From an uncultured Brevinema sp. (GTDB lineage Bacteria; Spirochaetota; Brevinematia; Brevinematales; Brevinemataceae): 64,000 bases of DNA. Shown piece by piece: positions 3,014-46,196 of this stretch; within the stretch, counting starts at the first letter, position 1; each line of letters opens with the position of its first letter. The notes beneath the pieces were generated by a model. That model searched no databases, had not been told where the DNA came from, and saw only the letters and a list, made by a program, of their open reading frames with translations. A program made the position numbers and the translations under genes. The stretch spans positions 1 to 64,000 of the forward strand of contig CAMQVI010000001.1 of assembly GCA_947038195.1 (NCBI GenBank), read 5' to 3'.

Positions 3014-3775
3014 ATGTTAACAGAATCAATATTGGTGGGGTTAGTCGCACTAGGAGCTACTTTTGAGTGGTTTTTAGGAACCAGTCTTATTTCTCGCCCA
3101 ATTATTCTAGGTCCAATTATAGGACTATTATTTGGAGATTTACAGACAGGTATTATACTAGGCGCTACTTTAGAGTTAGTGTTTCTAGGTAGTATCTCTA
3201 TAGGAGCTGCAATTCCTCCAGATGTAATTTCAGGAAGTATTTTAGCAACAGCTTTTGCTATTAAATCTGGACAAGGCACAGAAGTTGCCCTTACATTAGC
3301 GTTACCTATTGCAACACTAATGCTTGTTATTAAAAATGCATTATTTGTTTTTGTCTATCCTTTATGGATTCGTCTAGCAGATAGATATGCAGAAAATGGA
3401 GATGTGAAAGGAGTGGAATTCACTCACTTGGCAGCTGGATTTTTCACGGGTAGTGTGCCTATGTTTCTTTTTGTGACAATTTCTTATTATCTCGGATCTG
3501 GGGTAATGGAACAATTCCTAAATACAATTCCAGAATTTGTTAAAACGGGATTACAAATTGCAACAGGGATGTTACCAGCACTCGGCTTTGCAGTGTTAAT
3601 GACTATGATTTTATCCAAGAATGTAGTTTCTTTTTATTTCTTAGGGTTTATTTTGTCTGCATATCTTAAATTACCAATACTTGCTATAGCAGTTATTGCA
3701 GGAGTCATTGTTCATGTTATAGTATCAAATCCATTAAGAATATCTATGAAAGGAGGAAATGATGATGAATTCTAA
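3014..3775 (+). CDS. gfrC: PTS mannose-family EIIC permease subunit (GfrC-like)
   Basis: A 253-residue hydrophobic protein with many membrane segments. The early motif SRPIILGPIIGLLFGDLQTGI (about residues 28-48) followed by GATLELVFLGSISIGAAIPPD is diagnostic of mannose-family EIIC. With EIID it forms the transmembrane channel for the sugar derivative. AAGGAG precedes the ATG. Its 3' end overlaps the beginning of EIID. Confidence 0.9.
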   Translation: MLTESILVGLVALGATFEWFLGTSLISRPIILGPIIGLLFGDLQTGIILGATLELVFLGSISIGAAIPPDVISGSILATAFAIKSGQGTEVALTLALPIATLMLVIKNALFVFVYPLWIRLADRYAENGDVKGVEFTHLAAGFFTGSVPMFLFVTISYYLGSGVMEQFLNTIPEFVKTGLQIATGMLPALGFAVLMTMILSKNVVSFYFLGFILSAYLKLPILAIAVIAGVIVHVIVSNPLRISMKGGNDDEF

Positions 3776-19382: not shown

Positions 19383-20609
19383 ATGAAAAAGAGATTTTCT
19401 CTATTTTTTCTATTTTCGCTATTAATGAACTCTATTGTTTATGGACAAGAAATGTATAAGGCAGTCTACGAAGCTAGTATAGCGACGGTGCAGAAAGCCG
19501 ATTTGAAAACGATTGATCTCCCCGATTCTTCTGGACGCACTCCTTTAATGTTAGCTGCTAGAGAGGGTTTGATAGAAATTGTTGATTATTTGCTTTTACA
19601 AGGAGCCAATCCCAATCTCCCCAACCCTTCTGCTAATGACTGGACAGCCTTGATGTGCGCTGCTTTTTATGATCAATACGACATTGTACAACACCTCGTA
19701 GAACAAGCTCCTAAATTAGATATAAACCAAAGAGATAACAATAATAGTACGGCTTTAATGATTGCTGTAAGAGCTGGGAATTTAGAGATTGTTCGCTATC
19801 TTGTAAATAGAGGGATGAATCTCGATAAAGAGGAAGATAAAGAACAATGGACCCCCCTTATGTGGTCTTTACGATGGGGACATAGGGATATGGTGGAATA
19901 TCTCCTCGATGAAGGGGTAGCACTGAACAACACGAACGAAAATGGCTCTGCATTATCTATTGCTATAGAAAATAATAGATTCGACCTAGTCGAATCCCTC
20001 ATCAAAAAAGGAGCCGACGTCAATCAAGAAGTCTTTGGGCATACTCCTTTACTTATTGCCTCATATACCAAACACGTCCCTATCATGGTCTTTCTTATTG
20101 ATTCGGGAGCGAGTGTGGATGATTTTAATTTAGATGATAGAACGGCTCTTATGGAAGCTGCTCGATGGGATGGAGTGGAGATTGTTAAAGCCCTTGTACA
20201 AAAAGGGGCTAATATAGACTTACAAAATAGCAAGGGACAAACAGCCCTAGCTATTGCTGTAGAACAAAATTCTCCAGAAACTTTAAAATATCTAATCCTA
20301 AAAGGTGCTAATCTTAATCTTAAAGACAAAAAAGGGAATAGCCCTCTAGCAAAAGCTATTATGGTAAACAATCCAGAATTTGCTCTTATACTTATAGAAA
20401 AAAAGGCGGATATCAATAGTGCCAATAAAGTGGGAGACACACCCTTAATGCTAGCGACTAGAGAACAGAATAAAACGATGGTAGTCCATCTTGTACAAAA
20501 AGGAGCTACTACAACTCTTAAAAATAAAAAAAAGCAAACAGCCCTAAAAATTGCCGAAAAATCACGAAATAAAAGTATTATTCAATATCTCGAAAAATTT
20601 TCTAAATAG
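19383..20609 (+). CDS. Secreted ankyrin-repeat protein
   Basis: A 408-residue protein with a signal peptide (MKKRFSLFFLFSLLMNSIVYGQ, cleavage near residue 22) and then about ten tandem ankyrin repeats filling the rest. Repeat hallmarks such as SGRTPLMLAAREGLIEIVDYL, TALMIAVRAGNLEIVRYLV and DRTALMEAARWDGVEIVKAL recur every 33 residues. No catalytic domain is present. Ankyrin proteins bind other proteins; a periplasmic one may scaffold envelope partners or act on host surfaces, but nothing here selects between these. It has its own strong promoter. Confidence 0.9.
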   Translation: MKKRFSLFFLFSLLMNSIVYGQEMYKAVYEASIATVQKADLKTIDLPDSSGRTPLMLAAREGLIEIVDYLLLQGANPNLPNPSANDWTALMCAAFYDQYDIVQHLVEQAPKLDINQRDNNNSTALMIAVRAGNLEIVRYLVNRGMNLDKEEDKEQWTPLMWSLRWGHRDMVEYLLDEGVALNNTNENGSALSIAIENNRFDLVESLIKKGADVNQEVFGHTPLLIASYTKHVPIMVFLIDSGASVDDFNLDDRTALMEAARWDGVEIVKALVQKGANIDLQNSKGQTALAIAVEQNSPETLKYLILKGANLNLKDKKGNSPLAKAIMVNNPEFALILIEKKADINSANKVGDTPLMLATREQNKTMVVHLVQKGATTTLKNKKKQTALKIAEKSRNKSIIQYLEKFSK

Positions 20610-24265: not shown

Positions 24266-24574
24266 GATTGCTACTATTTTTTGCAAAACAACAATAAACA
24301 TGCGCTTTAAGGGTGCTTTTGATTACAAATCAGACAAATACTTGTGATATTTGTAATGAAAATTAATAAAAAGGTTTATTGTAAAGCGCTTTAAAGGAAG
24401 TGGTAAAAAGTCCGATAGGCAAAGATAGAGATACTTGCAAAAATCCATATTTTATTGATTTGAGACTTGTATCTAATTTAAAAATAGTGTATAATAATTT
24501 GTGTTCTTTGACTTTATTGTTGGAAGAACATGAAAATAAATATAAATAAATAAGAAAAATAAGTGGAGTTCCCC
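24266..24574 (+). promoter_or_regulatory. Upstream region and promoter of the giant lipoprotein gene
   Basis: TTGTAT (24467-24472), a 17-bp spacer and TATAAT (24490-24495) should start the giant gene's transcript near 24502, giving a leader of about 70 bases. Upstream there is a 10-bp palindrome AAAGCGCTTT (24383-24392) and a related GCGCTTTAAGG at about 24303, possible operator halves. No other gene is seen. Confidence 0.6.
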
Positions 24575-27500
24575 ATGAAAAAAATACAATTAGTCATTAT
24601 ATCTATGATTTTATTAGGTTCTTGTGAGGTTACAGGTAGAGAGTCGTTCAATCTTGAATATAAAACTCAACAAATACTCAACACTTTAGCCAAGTATCCT
24701 TTGAAATCTGTAGGGCCAGAAGGGGTGTTTTCTCAATTAAATCACACTTCTTTCGAATTTTCCACTTCTCCCTCAACAGTGATTGTCACAGAGCGAGAAG
24801 AAGGTGTTGATGTATCTAAGCATCGCTATAATGTTGAAGTAGTACAAGATATGAGTGTTTCAGAAGGGACTATTCGCTTATATGGTGGTGGGCCTTTAGG
24901 TAATAAATTCCTAGGAGTGCATGCAGTAGTGGGTGAAGGTGGAGCCTTTGTTAAATTTAGCATACAAGATGTTTCTGATGGTGCAATTGCTACTGCGAGT
25001 GCTAAACCATTTTGGGAGTATGTCTCCGAGCCTGTTATGTATCGTATTCACAATAGACAAAATAAAATCCATGAAGGCGAACGATTTGTTTCTCTTAGTG
25101 ACGAGGGTTTTTTAATAGATGATGACTTCAATCATTTTACTCCTAGAATTAATCTTGATGCTCTCACTGGAGAGATATTATATACTTTAGACTGGGGGCA
25201 AGTCACTGGAACAACAGATACCCCTAAACAAGAGATGAAATTAGTGGGAACAACAGTTGTTCCCCTCGCCTTAGAAGTTTTTTCAATAGAGGGGCATAAT
25301 TTTCCTGAGCCTAGTGCTAAATTCATGGCTGTAGAGTACCATGAAAATGGTACGAACACTCTCATGAAAATAAAATTCGGTACTACTTATGATGATGCTG
25401 TCCGAAAGGTAGAAAATAGTACTAAATATAATTATATAAGAGAATCACATGCTCAACGTCCTAATACAGTACTCAAAAAACTGGAAAATCAAAGAATTGC
25501 TCTTTTAAATTCAGACAAACTTTATGATTGGAATGGTGCTGATGAATTGGTTTTTGACACGGATAATATGACACTTCGTCTTACGACTACTCGGTTTATT
25601 AATGCGGACGGTGGGTCTATCCCCACAGGAAGAACGAATACCTCACTATACAATGTGAGAATGTTAAAAGATATAAGGGGAAGAGCTATAGCCACTGATG
25701 AGGTGTATGAGGGTATCTTCCTATTAACTAGCCCTGGAGGCGTGGGCTTATATCACAATAAGATAATAGGATTTTCTGTGATGCATATTGCAAATACGCA
25801 TCCTAAGTACAATCCTAATCTCCCTACAGACACAGACAAACAAATTTATGCTCTCTTTTATAATTCTAAAATCGACTACGTTGATGCTAACGCAGCCGCC
25901 CAGATAATAGCCGCAGAAGAAGCGTTAACAGACGCTGTTGTAAATTTTGATAACTTAACCTACCAGTCTCTTAATACAGCAAGACGTTCTTATGCCTTAC
26001 CTAATAATATGGTCATAATTGGTAAAGAATGGGTGAAACTTAAAGATAGTGGAGATGGAAGCATGACCTTCGATGCTCAAAATACAGAGATTTTATCTTT
26101 TAACGTGGAGAAACCTGTTGGGGGTGGAACTATTGTTAAAGATAGACGTATTACTATTACCACAATTGTTACGGGTACATCAAGTATAGGTTTTTATAAA
26201 TTTGCTATTGTAGAGGTAGTTAATTCTACTAATGCCGTAGGGCAATTATTTGGGTATGTGGATCCTACTAGTGAAACTTTAAATACAGCAGCTGCGTACC
26301 ACGGTAAATATGTAGCTTTTGATTTGGGCTCTAAATTATATAATACCCAAGGTAAATATGCTATAGCTGATGATATAGCTTCAGCTAAGAGTGCTGTAAG
26401 GAATCTCCGTAACTTTAACCTTCACGAAAAAGTAAACTTACCTTCCGAGTATAAAGTTATCAACACCATGGAAGGTTTCGAACCATGGGTAGCTTTAACA
26501 TATCAGACCCTTGACGGAGGGGCTTTATTAGAACCTGGGGATGTTACTCCATGGCTTACTACAGAGGCAATTGCTCCAGCAGGTAGTTATAATAAAAACA
26601 AAACTTATAAATTTGAATTTGACACAGGTACTGTAGTCCCTAGAATAACTGTGTCAAAAGTGATTCCAGGCACAGGGCTAGTAGGTATTGCTACATATGA
26701 ACTCACCCCTTACACAGCTAATAAAAATATCGTTTTCTCTGCACTTTATGGAGCTTACACTATCACAAGACTAAATGGTACTGGTGATAATCCTTTACCT
26801 AATCTTGATGCTGAAGTTATCGTAGTACGTACAGGGGGTCAAGGACCTGATGGGGGCAGAGGACATATATTATTCCTTGCCACTGCGGATGTTGATAAAG
26901 CTCATACAACAATTGATGTCATGGCAAATAAAAATTTATATAACTATGTAGGGGAAGCTAATGCTCCTATTGCCCCTTCAGTGCTATTTACTATAAATAA
27001 TAATACTTATGTTCGTTATACTAGAAATAATGCTGGTACAGCACCAAACGTTTATAGCGGAACGATTACCCCTCAAACTACAGACCATATCACTTTTCAC
27101 TCCATTTCAAGTACTGTAGATGTAGAGAGACGTTACGCCACTAAAGCTTCTGACAAACTAACCTTAAAATTAACTATGATACAAGATGATGGAGATTATT
27201 CTGGGGTCTTTGTCCTAAGCTCTGAAGATGCGTCGCCTATTACTGTCGATTACAACAAAAAAATATTCCGTTTAGATGTCCAAAAAAATGGCGCTCCTGT
27301 TCCAGCATTAAATGATGCTAGTGGTACAGGAGAAAAAATCTACCTGAGGGTTTTCAATGAAGGTGATGACGAAGCAGCCAAAGCGAGTATTCCTCAAGTA
27401 GGAATCTTTACCGACATAGCTACAACAAGTCATATTATAGATAAGAAAATAGAGGCAGCTTTATCTCAGGTCGAGCTCCCTGCAGTACTTCTTAAACTCG

Positions 27501-30500
27501 ATGGGGATGTTAGATATAGTCTCTTAGATAATAACTTCTTAGATAGAAGAAAACACACAAGATACACTATTGCAGCTACAGGTGTGGAAAGAAAAATTAC
27601 TATAGACACAGTTGTAAACAGTGAGGCAATCTTGACTGCCACTATAGGGTATTCTATTTATCAGATTGAGAGTCTAGGGACTGGCTATAAGGCTGTCTTG
27701 AAATTGGATACTCCTTTCAACGGCAATAACTTTCTTGCAATAAATATGCTTGGTGGTGCTATTCCTAAAGTACAAGAATATCCTCCTACTACTAAGTATC
27801 GTAAACCTTTGATTGTTGCTCAGGGCATTACCTTTAATGATGCTACAACGGCTATGGGTACTACTACCCCTTCAGCTGAAACGGAGCTTGTACCTGAAAC
27901 TCTTAATCCTGTTATCCAAGGTTTAGTCATAGCGTTTTTAGAAGGCTTAACTGCTGAAGAACGAGGTTTCAAAAGAATGAAGAAAAACGGAATCATAATA
28001 GATACTGGAGCTGATGAAACATGGATTTTTACTAAAGATACAGAAGGTGGATACATAGCTGCTGTTACGGGAACAGGTGTTGCTGAGACAGTAGCTGGAG
28101 ATGGTACAGGTAGATATCATATGCATCTCGAAAGTGTAAAATCAGATGCTACTAGCGGAATTGAGAGTATTAGATTCTATCTTAGTGATGGAGTCGAAAC
28201 TCCTGACGGTGCTTACCGTAAATGGTTTATCACCTTCAATGCTAAAGCGGGAGAAACTCTTGATACCCCTAAAAAAGAATTTAATCTAAGAGCATCCTTT
28301 AGATATGATTTCATTACCGAGATTGGTGATGTTGTTGATGTAGACGAGCGAGCTTTCCCTATGAAAGATACGGTGTCTGCAACGGCTACATCCGATGCTT
28401 TCACTAGTTTAGCTATATTTGGACCTGAGTGGGTTAAATTAGATGAGAATTATGACTATGATAAAGACGTTCCTATAGAAAAATGGAAATTTGATATGGA
28501 TGGTCAAACAGTAACGGTTACTAAAGGTGCTAATACCGCAATATACACAGGTGTTTATCATAAAAAAAATGGTAACACTTTCACCTACACCTTGGGTACA
28601 GGGGATGCGGATGCTGTAGGATATGGTGGTAAAGTAATAGCCATACGTCAAGGTGTCAAAGCTGATGATAAAACATCTACTGTTATAGAGCTTGATAAGG
28701 ATGTTTCATACGTGATTCCTACTACTACTATAGCTAATTTCCGTGCCAAACAAATAGCGGAGCTACCTTTTACCGCCAACATAGATAAACTAGCTGAACA
28801 GGGTTTCCAAGGGCTTGTAAGACTTGAAAAAGGCATTGCAAATGACATGACTGTCTCTGGAACCTATGACTATGATAGGGCTAATACTCAATACTGGAGA
28901 TTTAAAAAAGGAGCTACATTAAATGTTGGTGGGTCATTTAACCATACCTTACAAGTAAAAAATACTCCTAGCTATGCTTCTCCTGCCCGTCCTGTTGATA
29001 CTGGTTTAGATGCCGCAGCACCGAATACGGGTGAATTTGATGTTAATCTTACTCCTGATGCTAGCTATTCTATAATATTACTTGAGAATACAACTGAAAC
29101 AACTGTGCAATTCCAAGTCATCAACAAGACTGGTGCTGTTGCTGGTGTTGACCCTAATAATAAGTTTGTCTTTATTCAAAGAGGTATAGGTACTGATGCA
29201 GGACTATTCCGTATTGGAATGAGTGATACGAGTATATCTGTAGCCAGTGCAGAAGTGACGAAGCTAACGGGTGAGGGTGTCTATAACTGGGCTACCTACG
29301 AAAGAGCTAAAGCTGAAAAACATAATCATTTATTTAAAGACACTACATCTAAAATCTTGTTATACGATAAAGCATGGACTCTTACCAGAAAAGATGCCGA
29401 AACAGTGATTACTGGTAGTTCTAAACATGCTCCGAGCACAGCTAATGGTTACTATGTAACAGGCTACACAGACTTCACTTCAAGACCTGTCTATAAGCAA
29501 GAAAACAATCTAGGTATAAGCTTTAGAGAAGGAGATGCGACTACTCCTATACAGATGTTAGTGCGTAATGTACGAAATGAGGCTGATTTAGATCCTTTGG
29601 TTACTCCTACACAGACTTACGGTATAAAAGCTGTTGATACTTCGATAACTACTTTTATTGATCCTGATGGAGAAAATGAAACAAAACCAAGACAAGGTAT
29701 TTTCCTTATCCAAGGTAATGGTGAGTATAATAAACATTTCATGTACATAGCTACTGCAGAGCAAGACTCTGGTGCTGGGGAAAATGATGGAAGACGAGCT
29801 AAGTTAATTATTGATGAAGATATTAATGCCCTTAAAGCTAAAATTAGAGTTAGTGAAAGTAACCCTGGTGCTGACACCTATAATAAAGATAATGATCTCT
29901 ATAATTTCTTCCTTACAGAATGGTTATTCCCTCCTTCTGATTTTCTAGGTCAGATACGAAATATTACGACGGGTACTATCCCTCCTACTACTTTAGTAAC
30001 GGTAGATACTGGATTTACTAACGTTCCTAACCCTAGTTATATGCTAGATCGACGAAATCATATAGAATGGATCTTTAATACTGTTGTAGTTGGCGAAACA
30101 CCTTCTGTATCTATTAAAGAATTTGATAATGGTAATAGTGTAACAGATACCTATTCTTTGAATTCTCTTTTCGATAAAGTGGTAGGTGGTAGCAAGTACG
30201 ATGGTGCTTTCAGTTTAACTCTTGGTACTAAGGTTCGCTTTTTTGGTATTGTCTTTAGAGGTAATGGTATTGGAGAGGATCTTGCTGGTGCTACGGTTAA
30301 TACAGCCCCTTATTTCGAATTAAAAGAGTTTGATTCCGATATAAATGCTATAGCTTGGGTAAACACTACGATTCCTGTTGAGGGTAATGCTACTGGAGAA
30401 AAACCTAATACTGAAAAACACCTTTTTGTTCGCTCTCAGATTACAGAAGACTATAATTTACCTATAAATCTCGATAGCCAAACTCTTTTAGAGTTAGATA

Positions 30501-33500
30501 AAGATGCTATTTATTTAGGACATGATACAAGAGAATATCAATTTATCCCTGCAGCGGGTACTCTTATAGTTACGACTCATCATACAGTGTGGAGTACTGG
30601 TAATGCCACTAAAACTACCCATACCTACTATTATCACCCTGTAAAAGGTGCTACACCGACTAGTATGGATGTTGATAGTAAAACAGATCGTCAGAGAGCT
30701 ATTTATCTCCTTAAAGGTATAAATACAGGAGACCCTCTTAATGATAAACTTCTCGCTTTAGAAATAAATAGAGAAGGCTACAATCATGATAGCAGTGTAG
30801 ATGCAGCAGCTACAGTTATTACAGATATTCCTGACTATGCTTATGGTAAATTCCATATTTATGCTAAAACAGCAGATGAAGATAGTAAAATTGAAGCCAT
30901 AGATACTATAGCTGGTATAAATGCAGACTTAACCGAAAATGAGCTATCTCGTTATACTGCTCTTCGCCGAGATGTTGTGCTTGATGATAGTACAGAAACT
31001 GCCTTCGAAACATGGATGACTGCCTCTGCTAATCAGGGGTATGGTACCACAGCCCTAGGGGGAGGTAACTTCAACTACATACCTAACAATACTAGTGAAT
31101 ATATTGTGGATACTAAAAATAGAGTAGCTATTATAGTAGATAATACAGGTGTAAACCATACTAATTTTGTCCGACTAGAAATGATAAAAAAAGATCTCCA
31201 ATTGAAGGACGGCAACATAAGTGAGGACAATAAAGAAAGACTTCCTAGTACCTTCGCTTTCCGTATTAGAAAAAATACAAGAAATGATATAAAATTCCAA
31301 AATAAAGCTACCATTATACCTACTGCTACTGGAACTACCGCTGGTGCTCATACTATTACTGGATTAGACGATATAAAGATTGGACATATTAGTAAAGGCA
31401 ATGCAGATGAGGGCGCTTACTTCAATAAATGGGTAATATCAATACGTTATGGAGAAGGTATTAAGACCACTTCTTCTCTCCTCGGTGCAGTAAGCTCGAC
31501 ATCGGCGATAAATAACTCTATAGCTAATAGAGATGGTACGGGTGGAGTACCAGATGCTAAATTATTTAATAGAAGTGTATTAAAACGTCCTGCACAAACT
31601 TTAAACGCTTTGTATACTGATAATCCCACTGCTCATGCAGGTACTGAAGGGGGCTGGTTTATCCCAGTCGATATTTTAAACCAAGTTATACCCTATGGAG
31701 CAGGTACTGTAGATTTAGGTATACAAATATTAAACACTACTTCAGATGATTTAAATATTCACGATATAGCTTTTACCAAGGACCCTACCTCAACTGTTGC
31801 AGACACTATAGCAGGTGGTAGACAATACTATCATTCAAGAATTATATCAGATACAGAAGGAGAAGAGTCTGTTATTAGGGTTAATCGTAAAATAAAAAAA
31901 GCAAATGGTAGCTCATACCCTGCTACCGATAATAAAAATAATCATACCTACCAAACAGATGTTACAAACCAATTCATCGCTCTCCGTAGAGGTGTCCTTG
32001 AAAATGAGAGACGTTATAAAATATCTTTTGGACTTACAGAAGATATTGCGAAAGATAACTTAGCTAAACTTAGTCATTGGAATTACTTATCTTATAAAAC
32101 TGTAATGGCGACGAAAGACGTACTAAAAACCTTACTAACTAATACTGTCCCTGAGCCAGATATATTAGATCCTAAATGGATATATTATAGTATACCCGCT
32201 ACGGATAAACCTTCCCTCCCAGGAGAAAGTGCGAGAGATCGCTTCACATTCTCCACTCGTGGAACAGTACCAGGAAAGGAAGAATACCTAGTATCGAGAG
32301 ATAAAGGTACTGTCTCAGAAAATTATAGTATCACTCTCTTAGAGGGTACTGCTACTGAGGGATTAGGACAGCTCATAGGGTTTGGAGAATACCATGGACA
32401 GTATATAAAAATTAAAGATTTCGCTGCTGTAGATGGTAAAGCTAATCAAAAAGTAAGAATAGCCATAGGTAGGACTATACTAGAAGCTAACGATCGTATG
32501 GGAGAGATTGTTGCTAGTACAGGACATAACTTATTCAGAGAATCTTCTTTAATAGATGATATTCCTATACTAGCAGAAATGGCTGGGAAAATATACCATC
32601 TTACTAGACCTTTGAAAGTAGGGACTACTGAGTTATTTATCCGTGATGCGCGAGCACATGTAGAATACGGTATTACTAAAGTATCTATACTTCCTCCTGT
32701 TTATAATATATCTATTACAAAACGTACCGCTACGTCCTTAGATGTAAGTACTTATACCCTAGACCAAGTAGATGCAGATGCATCTACAGATACGAGAGCT
32801 TACTTTAAGTTACTGGGTACAGGTCTTGACAAAGATCAACATATAGGTATTAATAAAGGTGCTACTAAAAAAAGTCTCCCTCATATGGCTGATGGAGATA
32901 AAAAAACATATTATATGATAGCGATCACGGGACAGCCTCAAAATGAGATATTCCCAGCACTCTTAAATAATAGTGGTGTACTTGCTGGCACACAGCCTGG
33001 AGGCTCTGTACCTGTCGACCTAGTTGGACTTAAAACCTTTGTTAACAATAATGCCACTAGAGGTAATGTTTTCAATAGAGATGATCTTACAGATAATGCT
33101 AGTACTCTAGCTCCTTTAGGCACTATGGGACAAATAGTATCCTTAGCAAATGATGTATATAATCCTGATGATAATACTATTATTACTGTTAATAGTGATA
33201 ATAACGAATTACAGGTAGTTAAAGCTGGTAGCGTAAACCGTTACAACATTCTCATAGTGCATACTACCACTCATAGTACGAGTCCAGTAGTAGGTGCTAT
33301 CCTAGAGGGTGTTAATGCTGCATCAATAGCAGATACAGCTTGGCATAATAAACTCGTTTATTTCTCTAAAGAGGGTAATGATAGACTTATCCTTAAATCG
33401 AGTCATAGAGGTGATATAAGACCTAGTGGAGTTAATAACTCTATCTTAGGGGCACAAATAAAAGCTCAAATAGACTTAAAAGGTAGCTACTCTTACTCTT

Positions 33501-35317
33501 ACTGGAATTATCAAGTTTATAAAGATGTCGTTAAGGATAATATCGTACTAGAAAAACTAATAAATATAGGTGTTGAACGTGAAATCCCTAATAAGAAGGT
33601 TGGGAGCTTAGTAAAAGTAACTAACTTTGTATTTTTTGCTGATGATAGACTCTTTAAAGACCCCCTTTCTGGCGAAAGTCGTGTTGGTAAAAAACCTGGT
33701 GATAGGAAAATAGCAAATGGTACTGCTGCTGGTGGTAATGTTGGGGGTGGATATAGGGATGAACGTGGAGGAGTATTTAACCCATCTGATACCTACCAGT
33801 TATTGATGGTGCCTATTACGGGTGCTAAGCCTTATGGACAAGTACAAATCCGAAGAATATATGGTGCACCTGGGACTACGGTTACTGAGAGAGGAACAGA
33901 ACTCTTTAATTTCAAAATCTTAAAGAATATTGATGATAAAAAGGCTGTAATACAATTACTCCCTGTTAATCATGCTGGAGATTCCGAGCTTATAAAAACA
34001 TTTGCTAATGCGGTATTAGCCATAGACTTAGGGCCGAGAGATTTGAATACGGATAACATTAAATTCGGCTATGCTAAACCTAGTAGCTATAGTGATTTAA
34101 TAAATCCAGCTAACCCAGGAGGAACTGGAGGAGATGGAGGAACTATCCCAAGAGCCTTAAAAGATTTAGAAAGCGAAAACATAGGCTATAAAAAATATGT
34201 TCCTCGTCTCGTCCCCACCTATATAGCATATGCAGATACTGGGGTATTCGATACTATAGCTAATAGAACTAAATCGGAGCTTCTAAACGAAAGATGGACA
34301 CCTAATGGACAGAGACCTTTAACTACTACCGAGTGGGGTGGGGACTATAAGATTGATAATAACAATCATCTACTCTTTACTGTTACAGACCCTAATAATC
34401 CTCTTGAAGATAAAAAATTGGGAAGCCCCTTACCTCAGCAAACGTGGGGCTCTATGTATGGACCTCAATACACAGGTTCTGGTGCTGCCTCAATATCGGC
34501 CGGTGTTCATGCTAGTATCCGTATAGGAAACTTTCGAGGCTATACGATGACATGGCGTAGTAAAACTGAAGCTGGTATAGCTAGTCTGGGTTCAGGTAAC
34601 GGTAATAATGAGTACGGACAATATGGCAGCACGGTAACGACCTTCCTAAGACCTGTTAAAACAGATACCTCGGGAAATACCATAGTCTTTAGAGTCCATA
34701 GCCCTGATACTACAATAAGAACGATAGGGAAGATAGAAGAGACGGCTACTCAGACGAGCATATACGATCCTTATCATGCCCTAACAGCAGGAGAAAATGA
34801 ATTTTTAGGACTCTATAAATACGCTAAGGCAGCTAGTGCTGATCTCGCAGAGTCTGAAGCTATGAGGCTTACATATTATAACTATGGTACAGGTCTAGCC
34901 TCTAACCCTGCAAGATTTGGACTTTATAATTGGTTTATTAATAATGGTAAATCTATAAAACAAGTCGTATTTAATACGGGAGACCCAAAACCAGCTGGAA
35001 TAACTGAAAGAAAATGGACATTTTCAGAAGAGGGCGGTAAATATATCGTTAATACTATAGAAACTGGTAGTGGTAAAACTAGTTTAGGGGCTTACCAATT
35101 ACTAAGTAAAGATGGTTTTGGTACTGGTGACTCTAGGGCTGTCTTTGCCCTATCAGGAATAGGATCCTTATCAGGCCATCATATAGGTTTGGTGCGTGAC
35201 CATTTAAAACCCGCCTACATAGGTGTCGTTGTGAGAAAGGCAACTACTGCTGCAGAGCTAGATAGTTTGGTTAATGTAATTTTGGGAGTACCTTCTGATT
35301 CAGGAAGCATAGACTAA
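24575..35317 (+). CDS. Giant repetitive lipoprotein (about 3,580 residues)
   Basis: A single uninterrupted frame of 10.7 kb. The start at ATG 24575 has TGGAG six bases upstream and gives a lipoprotein signal, MKKIQLVIISMILLGSC, with C17 as lipid anchor. That cysteine is the only one I can find in the whole protein. The rest is a long series of degenerate modules, by eye about 18-20 units of roughly 180 residues. Each has a W-x-F or similar beta segment, a short sensor-like strand, then an 'I-F-L-L-x-G-x-G ... x-I-G' element, and ends in an alanine-rich helix; for example GIFLIQGNGEYNKHF, AIYLLKGINTG, FIALRRGV and AVFALSGIGSLSGHHIG. There is no C-terminal beta-barrel, sortase or transmembrane segment. 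It should be an exported, membrane-anchored fibre or surface structure. I recognise no family. Confidence 0.85.
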   Translation: MKKIQLVIISMILLGSCEVTGRESFNLEYKTQQILNTLAKYPLKSVGPEGVFSQLNHTSFEFSTSPSTVIVTEREEGVDVSKHRYNVEVVQDMSVSEGTIRLYGGGPLGNKFLGVHAVVGEGGAFVKFSIQDVSDGAIATASAKPFWEYVSEPVMYRIHNRQNKIHEGERFVSLSDEGFLIDDDFNHFTPRINLDALTGEILYTLDWGQVTGTTDTPKQEMKLVGTTVVPLALEVFSIEGHNFPEPSAKFMAVEYHENGTNTLMKIKFGTTYDDAVRKVENSTKYNYIRESHAQRPNTVLKKLENQRIALLNSDKLYDWNGADELVFDTDNMTLRLTTTRFINADGGSIPTGRTNTSLYNVRMLKDIRGRAIATDEVYEGIFLLTSPGGVGLYHNKIIGFSVMHIANTHPKYNPNLPTDTDKQIYALFYNSKIDYVDANAAAQIIAAEEALTDAVVNFDNLTYQSLNTARRSYALPNNMVIIGKEWVKLKDSGDGSMTFDAQNTEILSFNVEKPVGGGTIVKDRRITITTIVTGTSSIGFYKFAIVEVVNSTNAVGQLFGYVDPTSETLNTAAAYHGKYVAFDLGSKLYNTQGKYAIADDIASAKSAVRNLRNFNLHEKVNLPSEYKVINTMEGFEPWVALTYQTLDGGALLEPGDVTPWLTTEAIAPAGSYNKNKTYKFEFDTGTVVPRITVSKVIPGTGLVGIATYELTPYTANKNIVFSALYGAYTITRLNGTGDNPLPNLDAEVIVVRTGGQGPDGGRGHILFLATADVDKAHTTIDVMANKNLYNYVGEANAPIAPSVLFTINNNTYVRYTRNNAGTAPNVYSGTITPQTTDHITFHSISSTVDVERRYATKASDKLTLKLTMIQDDGDYSGVFVLSSEDASPITVDYNKKIFRLDVQKNGAPVPALNDASGTGEKIYLRVFNEGDDEAAKASIPQVGIFTDIATTSHIIDKKIEAALSQVELPAVLLKLDGDVRYSLLDNNFLDRRKHTRYTIAATGVERKITIDTVVNSEAILTATIGYSIYQIESLGTGYKAVLKLDTPFNGNNFLAINMLGGAIPKVQEYPPTTKYRKPLIVAQGITFNDATTAMGTTTPSAETELVPETLNPVIQGLVIAFLEGLTAEERGFKRMKKNGIIIDTGADETWIFTKDTEGGYIAAVTGTGVAETVAGDGTGRYHMHLESVKSDATSGIESIRFYLSDGVETPDGAYRKWFITFNAKAGETLDTPKKEFNLRASFRYDFITEIGDVVDVDERAFPMKDTVSATATSDAFTSLAIFGPEWVKLDENYDYDKDVPIEKWKFDMDGQTVTVTKGANTAIYTGVYHKKNGNTFTYTLGTGDADAVGYGGKVIAIRQGVKADDKTSTVIELDKDVSYVIPTTTIANFRAKQIAELPFTANIDKLAEQGFQGLVRLEKGIANDMTVSGTYDYDRANTQYWRFKKGATLNVGGSFNHTLQVKNTPSYASPARPVDTGLDAAAPNTGEFDVNLTPDASYSIILLENTTETTVQFQVINKTGAVAGVDPNNKFVFIQRGIGTDAGLFRIGMSDTSISVASAEVTKLTGEGVYNWATYERAKAEKHNHLFKDTTSKILLYDKAWTLTRKDAETVITGSSKHAPSTANGYYVTGYTDFTSRPVYKQENNLGISFREGDATTPIQMLVRNVRNEADLDPLVTPTQTYGIKAVDTSITTFIDPDGENETKPRQGIFLIQGNGEYNKHFMYIATAEQDSGAGENDGRRAKLIIDEDINALKAKIRVSESNPGADTYNKDNDLYNFFLTEWLFPPSDFLGQIRNITTGTIPPTTLVTVDTGFTNVPNPSYMLDRRNHIEWIFNTVVVGETPSVSIKEFDNGNSVTDTYSLNSLFDKVVGGSKYDGAFSLTLGTKVRFFGIVFRGNGIGEDLAGATVNTAPYFELKEFDSDINAIAWVNTTIPVEGNATGEKPNTEKHLFVRSQITEDYNLPINLDSQTLLELDKDAIYLGHDTREYQFIPAAGTLIVTTHHTVWSTGNATKTTHTYYYHPVKGATPTSMDVDSKTDRQRAIYLLKGINTGDPLNDKLLALEINREGYNHDSSVDAAATVITDIPDYAYGKFHIYAKTADEDSKIEAIDTIAGINADLTENELSRYTALRRDVVLDDSTETAFETWMTASANQGYGTTALGGGNFNYIPNNTSEYIVDTKNRVAIIVDNTGVNHTNFVRLEMIKKDLQLKDGNISEDNKERLPSTFAFRIRKNTRNDIKFQNKATIIPTATGTTAGAHTITGLDDIKIGHISKGNADEGAYFNKWVISIRYGEGIKTTSSLLGAVSSTSAINNSIANRDGTGGVPDAKLFNRSVLKRPAQTLNALYTDNPTAHAGTEGGWFIPVDILNQVIPYGAGTVDLGIQILNTTSDDLNIHDIAFTKDPTSTVADTIAGGRQYYHSRIISDTEGEESVIRVNRKIKKANGSSYPATDNKNNHTYQTDVTNQFIALRRGVLENERRYKISFGLTEDIAKDNLAKLSHWNYLSYKTVMATKDVLKTLLTNTVPEPDILDPKWIYYSIPATDKPSLPGESARDRFTFSTRGTVPGKEEYLVSRDKGTVSENYSITLLEGTATEGLGQLIGFGEYHGQYIKIKDFAAVDGKANQKVRIAIGRTILEANDRMGEIVASTGHNLFRESSLIDDIPILAEMAGKIYHLTRPLKVGTTELFIRDARAHVEYGITKVSILPPVYNISITKRTATSLDVSTYTLDQVDADASTDTRAYFKLLGTGLDKDQHIGINKGATKKSLPHMADGDKKTYYMIAITGQPQNEIFPALLNNSGVLAGTQPGGSVPVDLVGLKTFVNNNATRGNVFNRDDLTDNASTLAPLGTMGQIVSLANDVYNPDDNTIITVNSDNNELQVVKAGSVNRYNILIVHTTTHSTSPVVGAILEGVNAASIADTAWHNKLVYFSKEGNDRLILKSSHRGDIRPSGVNNSILGAQIKAQIDLKGSYSYSYWNYQVYKDVVKDNIVLEKLINIGVEREIPNKKVGSLVKVTNFVFFADDRLFKDPLSGESRVGKKPGDRKIANGTAAGGNVGGGYRDERGGVFNPSDTYQLLMVPITGAKPYGQVQIRRIYGAPGTTVTERGTELFNFKILKNIDDKKAVIQLLPVNHAGDSELIKTFANAVLAIDLGPRDLNTDNIKFGYAKPSSYSDLINPANPGGTGGDGGTIPRALKDLESENIGYKKYVPRLVPTYIAYADTGVFDTIANRTKSELLNERWTPNGQRPLTTTEWGGDYKIDNNNHLLFTVTDPNNPLEDKKLGSPLPQQTWGSMYGPQYTGSGAASISAGVHASIRIGNFRGYTMTWRSKTEAGIASLGSGNGNNEYGQYGSTVTTFLRPVKTDTSGNTIVFRVHSPDTTIRTIGKIEETATQTSIYDPYHALTAGENEFLGLYKYAKAASADLAESEAMRLTYYNYGTGLASNPARFGLYNWFINNGKSIKQVVFNTGDPKPAGITERKWTFSEEGGKYIVNTIETGSGKTSLGAYQLLSKDGFGTGDSRAVFALSGIGSLSGHHIGLVRDHLKPAYIGVVVRKATTAAELDSLVNVILGVPSDSGSID

Positions 35318-35428: not shown

Positions 35429-35456
35429 TTGACAATTCTCCCTTTTATGCTATAAT
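35429..35456 (+). promoter_or_regulatory. Promoter of phoU
   Basis: TTGACA (35429-35434), a 16-bp spacer and TATAAT (35451-35456), followed by AAAGAGAG before the phoU ATG. Confidence 0.75.
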
Positions 35457-35489: not shown

Positions 35490-36149
35490 ATGCCTATTGT
35501 AGATATAAAAATCCAAGAAATGAAAGACCTCGTTCATGCTAATATAGGACTCATAGAAAAAATGTTACTACAGACGGTAGAGTCAGCCACCACAGGGAAG
35601 TGGGAGCTTGCTCGAGAAGTTATCGATGTCCTCGAACCTCAGGCTAACACCTTTAAATTAGAAATTGCTCAAGAATGTCTCGGTATTCTTGCCTTATATC
35701 ACCCCGAAGCTGGGGATCTCCGTAAAATCATTAAGATGTCAGGCATAGGGGGAGACTTAGAAAGAATGGGCGACATGGTAACGAAAATCGCTTTTATTGC
35801 TTACACGTGGCGAGAAAATATAAACCTCAACGACTACCCCATACTCCTACAAATGATCACCGAAACCCATAAAATGCTTTCTAATGTCCGTAATGCTTTT
35901 GTGGAAGAGAGTAGCTTGGTAGCTGTTACCGTGATTCAACAGGACGATAGAGTGGACGCTCTTCGTACGAAAAGTATTAAAGCCCTCATTAAAGAAATGA
36001 ATCTTACGGAAGACGTAGAGCCCCTCATTCAAGTCCTCAATATCACGAGACATATAGAAAGAATGGCAGACCATTGTACTCATTTCGCAGAAGATATTAT
36101 CTTTATGAAAGAAGGACTAGTCCCCAATAAAGATAAAGTCGACCAATAA
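35490..36149 (+). CDS. phoU: PhoU-like phosphate-signalling protein
   Basis: A 219-residue all-helical protein with the two PhoU repeats. E/D-rich metal-binding signatures are seen as GDLERMGDMVTKIA (about 88-101) and RHIERMADHCTHFAEDIIFM (about 188-207). PhoU restrains Pst transport and Pho signalling. Unusually it is not the last gene of the pst operon but lies on the opposite strand, 2.5 kb away, with its own promoter and coupled to a glycosyltransferase gene four bases downstream. Confidence 0.92.
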   Translation: MPIVDIKIQEMKDLVHANIGLIEKMLLQTVESATTGKWELAREVIDVLEPQANTFKLEIAQECLGILALYHPEAGDLRKIIKMSGIGGDLERMGDMVTKIAFIAYTWRENINLNDYPILLQMITETHKMLSNVRNAFVEESSLVAVTVIQQDDRVDALRTKSIKALIKEMNLTEDVEPLIQVLNITRHIERMADHCTHFAEDIIFMKEGLVPNKDKVDQ

Positions 36150-36153
36150 GACA

Positions 36154-37263
36154 GTGAAAGATTCTTTAAAGATACTCGTCTTAAATTGGCGAGACCCTCT
36201 CCACCCAGAGGCTGGGGGAGCTGAGGTGCATTTGGATCAGATTCTATCTTATTTGTCCCCTAAGCATGATATCACCTTAGTTAGCACTAGGATTTCTCCT
36301 AAAGAAGAGCATTTTGAATATCATGGCTATCAAGTGCATAGAGTGGGGCATCCTCACCTCTTTAACTTCCATTTCAAAAGACTTTGGAATAAAAGATATA
36401 AAAAAGAAAATTATGATCTCATTATAGATGATATTTCTAAAATAGGCTTACAAACACCCCTCTACATCAAGGATATACCAATTCTTGCAATATTTCATCA
36501 TATTCATGGGCATACCCTCTTCCAATTACTCCCTTATCCTGTGGCACTCTATGTCTCTCTAATGGAGCGTTTCGCCCTAAAATCCTACCTCAATACCCCT
36601 ATGATTGTGGTGTCCGATAGCTCTAAAGAAGAATTATTAAGTCTAGCCCCCTTTAAAAATCTCACGGTAATCCCTAATGGTATCAATCCATCCTACCTAA
36701 AAATCAAAAATCCCACTAAAATTCCTTATACGATATGCTCCATAGGACGTTTAACCTATGCCAAGAGGGTGGATTTATCGATAATAGCATTCGCCAAGGT
36801 GCTAAAGACATTCCCTGATGCTTGTTTTCTAATCGCTGGTAAAGGCGACGATAAAGAACGTCTGGAAGAGCTCGTCTATCAGCTCGATCTCGAAGATTCC
36901 GTATATTTTTTGGATTATATCACAGAAGAAGAGAAAGTAATACTTTTAGAAAGCTCAGAGGCGATGTTATTTACTTCGGAGAAAGAAGGGTGGGGTATCA
37001 CCGTAATCGAAGCCTCAGCCCATTTCACACCAGTATTTGCCTTTGATGTTCAAGGGATAAGAGACTCCATTTCACAAGGCATCAACGGTTATTTGGTGAC
37101 TCCTTTTGGAGATACGGATAAACTCGCTGACATGCTTGTAAAATACCTAGACGATCCCCTACAAAGATCCCTACAAGCATCCTCTTATTGCCATGCTAAA
37201 AACTACGACTACCAAAAAATAGCCCAAGAGTTTGAGCTATTCTGCTATAATCTAATCCCCTAA
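36154..37263 (+). CDS. GT4-family glycosyltransferase
   Basis: A 369-residue GT-B enzyme starting at GTG four bases after phoU. The N-terminal acceptor domain opens with ILVLNWRDPLHPEAGGAEVH. The C-terminal nucleotide-sugar domain carries ICSIGRLTYAKRVDLSIIAFAKV and the E-x7-E catalytic signature in FTSEKEGWGITVIEASAH. It should transfer a hexose from a nucleotide sugar to a lipid or surface glycan. A decayed copy of its 3' end lies about 190 bp downstream. Confidence 0.88.
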   Translation: MKDSLKILVLNWRDPLHPEAGGAEVHLDQILSYLSPKHDITLVSTRISPKEEHFEYHGYQVHRVGHPHLFNFHFKRLWNKRYKKENYDLIIDDISKIGLQTPLYIKDIPILAIFHHIHGHTLFQLLPYPVALYVSLMERFALKSYLNTPMIVVSDSSKEELLSLAPFKNLTVIPNGINPSYLKIKNPTKIPYTICSIGRLTYAKRVDLSIIAFAKVLKTFPDACFLIAGKGDDKERLEELVYQLDLEDSVYFLDYITEEEKVILLESSEAMLFTSEKEGWGITVIEASAHFTPVFAFDVQGIRDSISQGINGYLVTPFGDTDKLADMLVKYLDDPLQRSLQASSYCHAKNYDYQKIAQEFELFCYNLIP

Positions 37264-40791: not shown

Positions 40792-41847
40792 TTATAGAGT
40801 GTCTACTACAGCTTTTCCATCATAAGTAATTTGACCTATAATATTGAGCCCTAGTTGTACTACATTTTTTGGTAATGGTGCGAAATAAAGCTCTGTATGA
40901 CTAGCTTGCACTTCAGGCGTATACATCCATTGTAGTAATTTCACTAACTCTTGAGCTTGTTCAAGGGAGCGTTTATTATAGTTTTGTTCTTTACGTACTA
41001 AAAGATAAGAGAAAGTTGCCATAGGAGCAGCCTTTTGTCCTGCAGTATAGGTAAGAGAAACCCTAGTATCTTTAGGAATTTGAGCACCTAAAGCTGCTAG
41101 GGTGGCATTTTCTACGTCACCAATAACGTAATTACCAGCTTTGTTTTTGATTTTTGCTACGGGGAAACCATTTTGTCGTGCATAAACAAGATCAACATAA
41201 GCAATAGCTCCTGGATTTTCTTTAGCAAAGCCCATCATAGAGGAGTTTCCTTTTTGACCGACACCAGTGACCCAATTAATAGTTTTACTCGTTCCAAAGG
41301 TTGATTCCCAATCTTCGTTAGCTTTGCTCATGAATTCAGCCATAATAAAAGTAGTACCACTACTATCAGATCGATAGACAGGGATAATTTCTAACTCAGG
41401 AAGATTAAGGACGGGATTGAGGGCTTGAATTTTAGGATCATTCCAATAAGTAATATCTCCATTGTAGATAGCATATATTGTAGCGGGGTCTAAAGAAAGG
41501 ACATCACCTTCCTCTATACCAGGGACATGGTAGGTGAAATTCACTGCAGCTAATACGCCGGGGATATGGAGGAGTTCGTTTGTTTGTTCTGCTATTTCTT
41601 GATCAGATAAGAAAGCATCTGTAGCTCCAATATCGACAATACCAGAGGCAATATTTTGAATACCACCACCAGAGCCTATTCCTTGATAACTAACAGAGAC
41701 ATCTGTTTCTGCTTTATAGTCAGCAAATACTTTATTATATAAAGGTGCGGGGAAAGTAGCTCCAGCTCCTTGTATAAGCTGTGTAGTAGATCCACCACAA
41801 GCGCTTAAAAACAAGACACTCATGATATACAAACCAATCTTTTTCAT
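40792..41847 (-). CDS. pstS: Phosphate-binding lipoprotein PstS
   Basis: A 351-residue lipoprotein (lipobox LSAC, C17). Phosphate-pocket motifs are conserved: GAGATFPAPLY, GIGSGGGI, DIGATDAFLS and YRSDSSGTTFI. It delivers phosphate to PstCA. AAGGAG precedes the ATG. It lies between a second, diverged PstS-like gene and pstC. Confidence 0.95.
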   Translation of the reverse strand: MKKIGLYIMSVLFLSACGGSTTQLIQGAGATFPAPLYNKVFADYKAETDVSVSYQGIGSGGGIQNIASGIVDIGATDAFLSDQEIAEQTNELLHIPGVLAAVNFTYHVPGIEEGDVLSLDPATIYAIYNGDITYWNDPKIQALNPVLNLPELEIIPVYRSDSSGTTFIMAEFMSKANEDWESTFGTSKTINWVTGVGQKGNSSMMGFAKENPGAIAYVDLVYARQNGFPVAKIKNKAGNYVIGDVENATLAALGAQIPKDTRVSLTYTAGQKAAPMATFSYLLVRKEQNYNKRSLEQAQELVKLLQWMYTPEVQASHTELYFAPLPKNVVQLGLNIIGQITYDGKAVVDTL

Positions 41848-41879
41848 AATTTCTCCTTTGAAAAAATGTGTTTATTGTT

Positions 41880-43028
41880 TTATTTTCTGTTTGTTCTTTC
41901 AGGAGAAGGAGTTAATGCCTCTCCATTGTAGGTCATTTTGGCTAAGGTAGCTCTAGAAGTTTTTCTAAATTTAGGGGTAAGTCCTGCAAAAAAGATAGGG
42001 TCTAATTGTATTTGAGCGACAGGAGACAAAAGCCAACTCAATAAATCCACCGTAGCCTGAGCTTGTTCTTTGGTTCTATTATTGTAATTTTGTTCTTTAC
42101 GGACAATCATATACATAAAAGCAGTAGCGACGGCTGCTTCTTTTCCTAAGCTTGGGTGTTGAGGGTAGGTAAGGTCTATTCTATTATCAGCAGTAGGTTC
42201 AGCGACTTTCATCGCCTCTAAAGACCTAAAGTTACAACCTCTTCCGTAAGTCCCTAAGAAGTTTCTAACTCTAGCAAGGGGCATATTATTTTGCAGTCCA
42301 TAAATCATTGTTGTATAAGTAAAAGCGCCAGGGGTTTGAACATGGTGTTGCATAAGGTCTAGGGCTGTGTCCCCTGTTATACCTATTTCCCAGTCTAATT
42401 TACTTAAAACCTTTGTACCCACTTCTTTTCTCCATACGGGGCTGGCTTTGGAGAGAAATCGTGAGAGTAAAACGGTATCCCCAGCATTATCAGCTCTATG
42501 GATGATAACAATATCCAAATCAGGCAGGACACGATCTTTGTCTATAGCTACTTTCTTGTTAATAGCAACAATCTCAGGATCATTCCACTTTGTAATTTGT
42601 CCCAAGTACATTTTAGCGATGATATCAGGGGTGAGATATATAGGATCATCTTGCATAGAAAACCCATCTTCTTTTATATGATAGGCAAAATTAACACCAG
42701 CGACTGCTATAGGGATATGTAGAATTTCTGCTTGATCTTTTAATTGTTTATCATTCATGTAGATTTCACTTAGAGCAAAATCAGCAGTACCTTCGAGGAT
42801 AGCAGTCATTCCGAGATAAGAATTATCAGCGGTATAATCTACAGCGATATCTTTTTTCTCTTGAAAATCTTTAAAAAGCTCGGAAGACATTGGAAGTACG
42901 AAACTAGACCCTACCCCTTTAAGAGTAGCGATGTTTTCTGTTTGAGCTCTTCTCATAGGGGGGGAGCAGGATACAAGGGTATAAAATATAATCAAAAAAG
43001 AGTAAAAATATTTCATTCTAAAAAGCAT
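41880..43028 (-). CDS. Diverged PstS-like lipoprotein
   Basis: A 382-residue lipoprotein (lipobox LVSC, C21) homologous to PstS along its length, for example VAGVNFAYHI and MYMIVRKEQNYNNRTKEQAQATVDLLSWL. Yet the phosphate loops are altered: GAGATFPAP becomes GVGSSFVLP, GSGGG becomes DNSYLG, and SDSSGTT becomes RADNAGDT. It is the first gene of the pst operon. It may bind another oxyanion or organophosphate, or act as a sensor or decoy; sequence cannot decide. Confidence 0.85.
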   Translation of the reverse strand: MLFRMKYFYSFLIIFYTLVSCSPPMRRAQTENIATLKGVGSSFVLPMSSELFKDFQEKKDIAVDYTADNSYLGMTAILEGTADFALSEIYMNDKQLKDQAEILHIPIAVAGVNFAYHIKEDGFSMQDDPIYLTPDIIAKMYLGQITKWNDPEIVAINKKVAIDKDRVLPDLDIVIIHRADNAGDTVLLSRFLSKASPVWRKEVGTKVLSKLDWEIGITGDTALDLMQHHVQTPGAFTYTTMIYGLQNNMPLARVRNFLGTYGRGCNFRSLEAMKVAEPTADNRIDLTYPQHPSLGKEAAVATAFMYMIVRKEQNYNNRTKEQAQATVDLLSWLLSPVAQIQLDPIFFAGLTPKFRKTSRATLAKMTYNGEALTPSPERTNRK

Positions 43029-44774: not shown

Positions 44775-46196
44775 TTGAGTGAGATTTCTTTTATCAACCA
44801 TCAAGATTCTATTATTTTAGATTTTCCTCATAAAGATTCTGTACTATATGATGATATTTCCCACGAAAAATCAGAAAAAGCGTTTATATCTATCGAAAAT
44901 CATAAAAATAGAGATAAACTCTTCTCCCCTAAACAATTTCACAATTGGAGCATAGTATCATCTGATACGATGCAGCCCATTTCCCAATTATCTATTGATA
45001 ATAATTTCTTATTTAAAGGAAATAATTTAATAGTCCTTCATTCTATAGCCCCTATTTTTCAAAATAAAATTAAGCTCATTTACATAGACCCTCCTTATAA
45101 TACAGGCAATACATTCATCTATAAAGATAAATTTTCTAGAGCAGAGTGGCTCTTGTTTATGAAAAATAGACTAGAGATTTCTCGTTTATTCCTCCAAGAA
45201 GACGGAATATTAGTGATACAATGTGACGAAAACGAACATGCTTATCTAAAGATTTTACTAGATGAGTTATATGGAGAAGAAAACTTTCTAGGTTCTATTA
45301 CCGTATTAACGAACCCTAGTGGAAGAGACTATAGATCCCTTGCCCGTACTCACGAATATTTATTAGTGTATGGTAATAGACCTGAAGCTCAATTATACCC
45401 TCTTATCTTAGATAAAGAATTTAAGTTTGAGGATAATCTAGGTGGTTTTGATCTCCGCAGTCTTAGAAATGGAAATATTAGATTTCATGAAGGGAATAGA
45501 CCCAATCTACATTACCCCTTTTATGTAAATTCTACCATAAAAGATTCCTTTGAACACCACCCTGTATCTACCACCCCTAAAAAAGGCTGGATAGAAGTAC
45601 GCCCTAGAATGTCTCAAGGGATTAATACGGTATGGCGTTGGGGTAAAGAAAAAGCAGAGAACAATATAAAAGATAATACCTTGAATTCTAATCTCATCGC
45701 TAGAAAATCTAAAGATAGTTTTTTAATCTTCGAAAAATATCGTAATAATACGAGGTTAGCTCGTACGATATGGGATGAAAAAAGCTTTCATACCACTAAA
45801 GGTACCAAACACATAAAACAAATGTTCGGCGAGTCTGTTTTTGATTACCCTAAACCAGAAGAGCTAATTGCTCGTATTATAGATATTGCCACTAAAAAAG
45901 GTGATAGAGTAATGGACTTTTTTCTAGGATCTGGTACCACAGCAGCTGTGGCTCATAAAGCAGGACGTAAATGGATAGGTATAGAGCAATTGGACTATAT
46001 AGAGACAGTGACCATCCCAAGACTCCAAAAAATGCTTTCAGGAGAAGAGGGGGGAGCTAGCAGTCATTATCACTGGAAAGGTGGTGGTGATTTTGTGTAC
46101 ACCTCTTTATTAAAACGTAAGGACGCTAAATTCCCTTACTATGCAGATAAAAATGATAAAGATGGGGTGGTAACGTCCTTTTACGAATTAAAATAA
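44775..46196 (+). CDS. Orphan beta-class DNA methyltransferase
   Basis: A 473-residue amino-methyltransferase starting at TTG with AAGGGTAAAG upstream. Motif IV, DPPYNTG (105-111), precedes motif I, MDFFLGSGTTAAVAHKAGRKWIGIE (about 385), which defines the beta class (N6-adenine or N4-cytosine) as in type III Mod subunits. The region between is the target-recognition domain. No restriction subunit adjoins it. This points to a solitary regulatory or epigenetic methylase, or the remnant of a restriction system. Its last 22 bp are duplicated just downstream. Confidence 0.87.
   Translation: MSEISFINHQDSIILDFPHKDSVLYDDISHEKSEKAFISIENHKNRDKLFSPKQFHNWSIVSSDTMQPISQLSIDNNFLFKGNNLIVLHSIAPIFQNKIKLIYIDPPYNTGNTFIYKDKFSRAEWLLFMKNRLEISRLFLQEDGILVIQCDENEHAYLKILLDELYGEENFLGSITVLTNPSGRDYRSLARTHEYLLVYGNRPEAQLYPLILDKEFKFEDNLGGFDLRSLRNGNIRFHEGNRPNLHYPFYVNSTIKDSFEHHPVSTTPKKGWIEVRPRMSQGINTVWRWGKEKAENNIKDNTLNSNLIARKSKDSFLIFEKYRNNTRLARTIWDEKSFHTTKGTKHIKQMFGESVFDYPKPEELIARIIDIATKKGDRVMDFFLGSGTTAAVAHKAGRKWIGIEQLDYIETVTIPRLQKMLSGEEGGASSHYHWKGGGDFVYTSLLKRKDAKFPYYADKNDKDGVVTSFYELK

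Follow-up and report, generated by a model that had tools for sequence, protein, structure and literature searches.

What does a gut-type spirochaete make of a single open reading frame of 10.7 kb? We addressed this question for the putative lipoprotein gene at 24575-35317 of the window, the 64,000-nucleotide stretch of uncultured Brevinema sp. DNA analyzed here.

A giant lipoprotein gene and its modules

The forward-strand frame of 3580 codons begins with an ATG at 24575 and ends with a stop codon at 35315-35317 (Table 1), and the opposite strand carries stops throughout in the frame tested. An earlier note on this DNA had described the 10.7-kb frame as encoding an exported lipoprotein anchored by C17; its coordinates, length and start were correct, and the sequence is consistent with the anchor, because an N-terminal signal peptide and a lipobox Cys, the hallmarks of bacterial lipoproteins, can both be recognized. 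Cys17, within MKKIQLVIISMILLGSC, is the sole cysteine of the protein, and the lipobox Cys is kept in all four relatives at position 16, 17 or 21. No transmembrane-like segment was found after the signal in the 3580 aa of the protein. Upstream of the giant gene, there are only weak sigma-70-type promoter matches; the two perfect (12/12) matches with a TG before the -10 element in the window lie before phoU (35429-35456, plus strand) and at the start of the Na/Ala symporter gene (24265-24237, minus strand).

The lack of any further cysteine had been judged very unlikely by chance and taken to suggest selection for folding outside the cytoplasm; the count is correct but its improbability was overstated. 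In a small sample of 15 proteins that look exported or lipoprotein-like, chosen by eye from this genome and its relatives, cysteine accounts for 0.12 % of the residues after the signal; for the other proteins of the window, the figure is 0.90 %. About 4 cysteines are therefore expected in the giant protein at the exported rate (32 at 0.90 %), and their complete absence after the signal has P~0.015. Within the 17,028 residues of all five family proteins, two cysteines lie clearly beyond the signal region (C788 in the protein of genome G001 and C54 in G003a). Cysteine avoidance is a trait of the exported proteome, which favours export but is not peculiar to the giant protein, and because low cysteine content is general among exported proteins here, its loss is weakened as a special signature.

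To delineate the modules, we seeded a hidden Markov model (HMM) with residues 28-190 and iterated it to convergence (~147 positions), which resulted in the identification of 94 modules across the five family proteins, including 18 in the window protein (E<0.001). A hold-out profile derived from the four other proteins only recovered 17 homologous modules along the window protein at E<0.001 and one more at 0.0019, as expected of a tandem repeat. The controls, which were 100 shuffles made globally, 100 made locally and the sequence in reverse, contained no module at E<0.001; the best domain score in the shuffles was 7.4 bits. Profile-profile comparison added two weak modules (~2155-2207 and ~3353-3437), for a total of about 20, and detected no module in the stretch 1116-1279. 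Plain self-BLAST of the window protein produced no internal match at E<0.001 because its modules are too diverged, and the DNA of the window copy contains no useful repeats, only short matches of 66-80 %.

The median spacing between module starts is 178 residues in the window protein, 151-154 in the relatives from G001 and G002 and 140-144 in those from G003, which shows that the module core spans ~140 residues, that the proposed period of 170-190 residues includes insertions and that the window protein is lengthened by insertions in loops. Of the ~18-20 degenerate modules of ~180 residues that had been proposed from the sequence, the number stands, as 18 clear and 2 weak ones, whereas the core is shorter. 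The HMM consensus comprises, in order, a WVsL strand, Y..NT..WxF, a TY strand, GxFxLxG, Ky.aI and an Ala-rich helix ending in WNY, in agreement with the motif order of the earlier note (WxF, GxFxLxG, a short KyxaI-type strand, Ala-rich helix); profile self-comparison, which that note had named as the check on whether there are repeats at all, does detect them.

No convincing match to a known family was found either for the whole protein (Pfam, NCBIfam, PHROGs, PADLOC and PDB sequences) or for the modules (Pfam, NCBIfam and PDB), consistent with the initial impression that the module fits no known family. A clear assignment of the entire protein to a described family, which by the earlier note would have spoken against its claim, did not turn up. 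With the full-length protein as query, Pfam returned nothing at E<=1; it gave no consistent match for 76 modules, no PDB chain matched the module profile at a meaningful E-value, and no Big_2-type Ig-like domain, characteristic of Lig proteins, was detected. A phage or plasmid origin was also considered, but there was no match to phage, plasmid or viral contigs. The module represents a genuine domain family without previous description, which serves as the bead of the giant lipoprotein.

Table 1 Features of the giant gene and its product (module numbers and residues refer to the protein)
Feature	Position in window	Strand	Basis
Putative ribosome-binding-site region, GGAG before ATG	24558..24574	+	sequence AATAAGTGGAGTTCCCCATG
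Putative giant lipoprotein gene, 3580 aa, 392 kDa, pI 5.6	24575..35317	+	sequence
Predicted lipoprotein signal peptide (residues 1-16) followed by lipobox Cys17 (LLGSC)	24575..24625	+	sequence; Cys in relatives
Module 1, 37-162	24683..25060	+	HMM E 1.9e-34
Module 2, partly matched, 176-300	25100..25474	+	HMM E 2.2e-14; hhalign prob 98.7%
Module 3, 302-448	25478..25918	+	HMM E 9e-20; first half of tandem model
Module 4, 480-629	26012..26461	+	HMM E 2.9e-31; AlphaFold2 model md32fe69fdc1a, pLDDT 90.8, pTM 0.84
Module 5, 657-803	26543..26983	+	HMM E 4e-15
Module 6, 816-958	27020..27448	+	HMM E 3.5e-13
Module 7, 974-1115	27494..27919	+	HMM E 6.5e-10; hold-out E 0.0019
Module 8, 1280-1402	28412..28780	+	HMM E 5.4e-11
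Module 9, 1418-1585	28826..29329	+	HMM E 4e-15
Module 10, 1625-1782	29447..29920	+	HMM E 2.8e-13
Module 11, partly matched, 1809-1942	29999..30400	+	HMM E 2.1e-8
Module 12, 1965-2138	30467..30988	+	HMM E 2.4e-17
Weak module, about 2155-2207	31037..31195	+	hhalign E 1.1e-4, prob 57%; hold-out HMM E 0.011
Module 13, 2375-2517	31697..32125	+	HMM E 6.8e-17
Module 14, 2534-2666	32174..32572	+	HMM E 3.8e-15
Module 15, 2680-2805	32612..32989	+	HMM E 2.4e-10
Module 16, 2848-2992	33116..33550	+	HMM E 6.2e-14
Module 17, 3053-3198	33731..34168	+	HMM E 1.5e-8
Weak module, about 3353-3437	34631..34885	+	hhalign E 3e-7, prob 93%; hold-out HMM E 0.026
Module 18, C-terminal, 3458-3580	34946..35314	+	HMM E 7.3e-8

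Predicted fold of the module

The AlphaFold2 model of residues 480-629, generated with 35 modules from the window protein and L021 as input, has a mean pLDDT of 90.8 and a pTM of 0.84. Modelling covered sequences from the window and L021; the modules that are conserved best are those of G003. In the model of residues 480-629, the strands (6-9, 18-20, 24-36, 40-53, 56-71, 74-82, 100-105 and 113-119) are followed by a helix (122-130) and then a short strand, so the module is predicted to be a compact antiparallel beta meander with one helix and a short strand, and the meander probably closes into a barrel-like body. For residues 302-641, a tandem model (pLDDT 70.8, pTM 0.53) has the same order of elements in both halves, with a pTM too low to place the modules relative to each other. 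Structure prediction had been suggested as a means to reveal a repeated fold, and both modelled stretches support one.

The order predicted in both models, a meander, then a helix and a short strand, is that of the lipocalin/calycin superfamily (e.g., Can f 1, siderocalin and retinol-binding protein), in which the up-and-down meander is closed into a barrel, as it may be in the module. Lipocalins, siderocalins and retinol-binding protein ranked first in the Foldseek search with the single module, but none of these matches to solved structures was significant (best E 0.06, TM<=0.42), and the tandem model produced mixed matches with similarly weak scores, including the two-barrel APCDD1, TbpB and avidin. 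Furthermore, the lipocalin GxW motif is absent from the first strand (5 of 62 modules compared with 3.6 in shuffles). No viral structure gave a significant match. The module is thus lipocalin-like in its predicted order of elements rather than a demonstrated lipocalin.

If the resemblance is more than superficial, a single lipid anchor might carry a series of about twenty lipocalin-like barrels, every one with a pocket of its own, which would make the protein a multi-ligand fibre built from a Brevinemataceae-born domain family. We entertain this possibility only tentatively; to our knowledge, multi-ligand fibres of tandem lipocalin-like barrels have not been described in bacteria. Rather unlikely, too, is a nutrient scavenger, as opposed to an adhesin, in which every module would be shaped like a lipocalin cup and the chain would soak up haem, small hydrophobic molecules or carrier proteins of the host: the order of elements, the top-ranking matches of the single module, some of the similarly weak matches of the tandem model and the location of the gene next to a phosphate-uptake locus in three genomes are compatible with such a role, but it has to contend with the lack of a significant Foldseek match, the absence of GxW and the location of the giant genes of G003 away from pst.

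Distribution, neighbourhood and divergence

Full-length relatives (2297-4186 aa) were found only in the other three Brevinemataceae genomes: one in each of two genomes of the same genus, G001 (3991 aa, joined from two contigs that overlap by about 46 residues) and G002 (4186 aa), and two in G003, a member of the same family (2974 and 2297 aa). The giant copy is single in each of the three genus-level genomes, and G003 has four related loci, two of them intact and two decayed. The decayed copies (L036:1630-9079 and L035:1666-4712) are split into many frames and the intact ones are located elsewhere. The HMM search of other spirochaetes that the earlier note had called for covered 393 Spirochaetota genomes and yielded module matches only in the four Brevinemataceae, with none in the 389 others; no module was detected in nine further members of the order or in five additional genomes from the class. 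An alignment-based profile scan of named genomes retrieved one contig, CAMRBT010000005.1 from an uncultured Brevinema sp. MAG, with the same content as contig C5 of G002, and a scan of the contigs of named genomes with a single sequence produced no match. The protein family seems to be confined to the Brevinema family.

In the three genus-level genomes, the giant gene adjoins phoU, a glycosyltransferase gene and the pst cluster. The phoU-glycosyltransferase pair follows the giant gene in the window (35490-37263) but is found upstream of it in G001 and G002 (L015:816-2591 and L017:1287-3066). We did not adopt a function by association with the phosphate locus, given that the giant genes of G003 lie elsewhere and that phoU has its own consensus promoter. 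The pst cluster of the window includes two different PstS-like lipoprotein genes in tandem (40792-43028), which are also present in G002, and an exported-looking protein of 408 aa consisting almost wholly of ankyrin repeats is encoded at 19383-20609.

The giant protein diverges far faster than the products of the neighbouring genes (27-44 % vs 55-91 % identity). Between the window and the other genomes, its identity is 27-30 % whereas that of PhoU, the glycosyltransferase, PstABC and PstS is 55-84 %; between G001 and G002, the respective values are 44 % and, for PhoU, the glycosyltransferase and PstABC, 81-91 %. In the latter pair, identity declines along the chain, from 50-56 % near the N terminus and its lipid to 33-36 % at the C terminus. 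Relatives gain modules by duplication of blocks: in G003a, residues 1387-2090 match 2095-2783 at an offset of 708, a five-module duplication (E 2e-72), and many further internal matches are offset by close to a multiple of ~142. Despite 27-44 % identity, open frames of about 7-12.7 kb are intact in four genomes. The breakdown of two further G003 copies into many frames suggests that unneeded copies decay, and the persistence of intact frames alongside them that the intact ones are being kept.

Possible role in the cell envelope

We consider it somewhat better than even (a probability of about 0.55) that the protein is a lipid-anchored, fast-evolving, beaded surface fibre of Brevinemataceae that functions in adhesion or ligand binding. 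Behind the signal peptide and lipobox, about 20 copies of the ~140-residue module would form a beads-on-a-string envelope protein in which each module is a compact, beta-rich bead, the helix leads towards the next module and the linkers are short. The N-terminal lipid would hold the chain in the outer membrane, from which it would reach outward, and the many diverged modules could bind host or mucus components, making the protein an adhesin or a ligand-capture fibre. Module number and sequence change rapidly as blocks are duplicated and diverge, which is to be expected if hosts or ligands vary. We infer the outer-membrane anchoring, the outward reach and the binding from the precedents of LigB, an elongated protein with 12 Ig-like domains that binds matrix molecules (PMC5749957), and of the spirochaete adhesin Tp0751, which contains a lipocalin domain (PMC5431505), and from the enrichment of Brevinema in salmon gut mucosa over digesta (PMC7934271). 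Against this reading, fluorescence in situ hybridization (FISH) did not find Brevinema on the char gut epithelium, and the authors list lack of adhesion among the possible reasons (PMC11092275).

The conservation of the lipobox Cys in all relatives, the modules recovered by the hold-out profile, the maintenance of the open frames, divergence above that of the neighbours, the block duplication of modules, the lack of a transmembrane-like segment and the common order of elements in the modelled stretches are all consistent with a surface fibre. Conversely, the lipid could equally hold the protein in the periplasm, the tandem model gives no reliable arrangement of modules and hence no fibre shape, and fast divergence also fits relaxed constraint on a spacer. 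In the periplasm, the chain might be a tether or ruler that remains beneath the outer membrane, where it would connect the envelope layers or set the distance between them, possibly around the flagella. Its export, lipid anchor and length would suit such a function, and the near-absence of cysteine suits any compartment outside the cytoplasm, but we regard a ruler as improbable because it should not tolerate changes by whole-module blocks between 2297 and 4186 aa, nor is faster divergence than in the PstS substrate-binding lipoprotein (30 % vs 55-69 % identity between the window and G002) in its favour, and about 20 modules stretched out would be expected to exceed the spirochaete periplasm. 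We give least credence to an immune decoy or variable antigen whose repeats chiefly present changing epitopes: the four G003 loci, module gain and loss and rapid divergence that rises towards the C terminus are in line with it, but each genus-level genome has one giant copy and the window copy has no DNA-level repeats for recombination switching.

As a surface fibre, the giant protein is best read, by analogy, as working like Leptospira LigB but with an unrelated module. As proposed here for the giant protein, LigA and LigB are exposed on the outer membrane of a spirochaete; their elongated chain consists of at least a dozen all-beta domains arranged in tandem and binds host matrix (PMC5749957, PMC3012076). 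Unlike them, the giant protein has neither a Big domain nor any Pfam match, and its module is predicted to be an antiparallel meander with a helix rather than an Ig sandwich. The Lig proteins are about 1200-1900 aa long, and the giant protein, at 3580 aa, is longer. Tp0751 of Treponema pallidum has a lipocalin domain (PMC5431505), and the module resembles lipocalins in its predicted order of elements, but Tp0751 has only one such domain, not twenty, and is absent among the 50 best fold matches to the module. The architecture, an envelope anchor followed by tandem beta domains, is already known in spirochaetes; what is new is the module, the length and the restriction to one lineage. The giant protein exemplifies an Ig-independent route, by module duplication, to a very long spirochaete envelope protein. 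Brevinema is common and mucosa-enriched in the gut communities of farmed salmonids, and the protein is a concrete target for asking how these spirochaetes meet the host.

The module also occurs, in one to three copies, in short proteins of this lineage encoded in the same genome as the window (contig C12, L032:5528-7861) and in G003 (L033:4930-7242), each just downstream of or near purA. As in the giant protein, the lipobox Cys is their only cysteine; unlike it, they have ~775 aa (777 and 770 aa, 26.5 % identical) and a kelch/BNR-type propeller behind the modules. They could represent an ancestral short form of the giant protein or relatives that bind glycans. A protein similar in appearance to the product of the N6/N4 DNA methylase gene of the window (44775-46196) is also encoded near purA in G003 (L033:510-1934).
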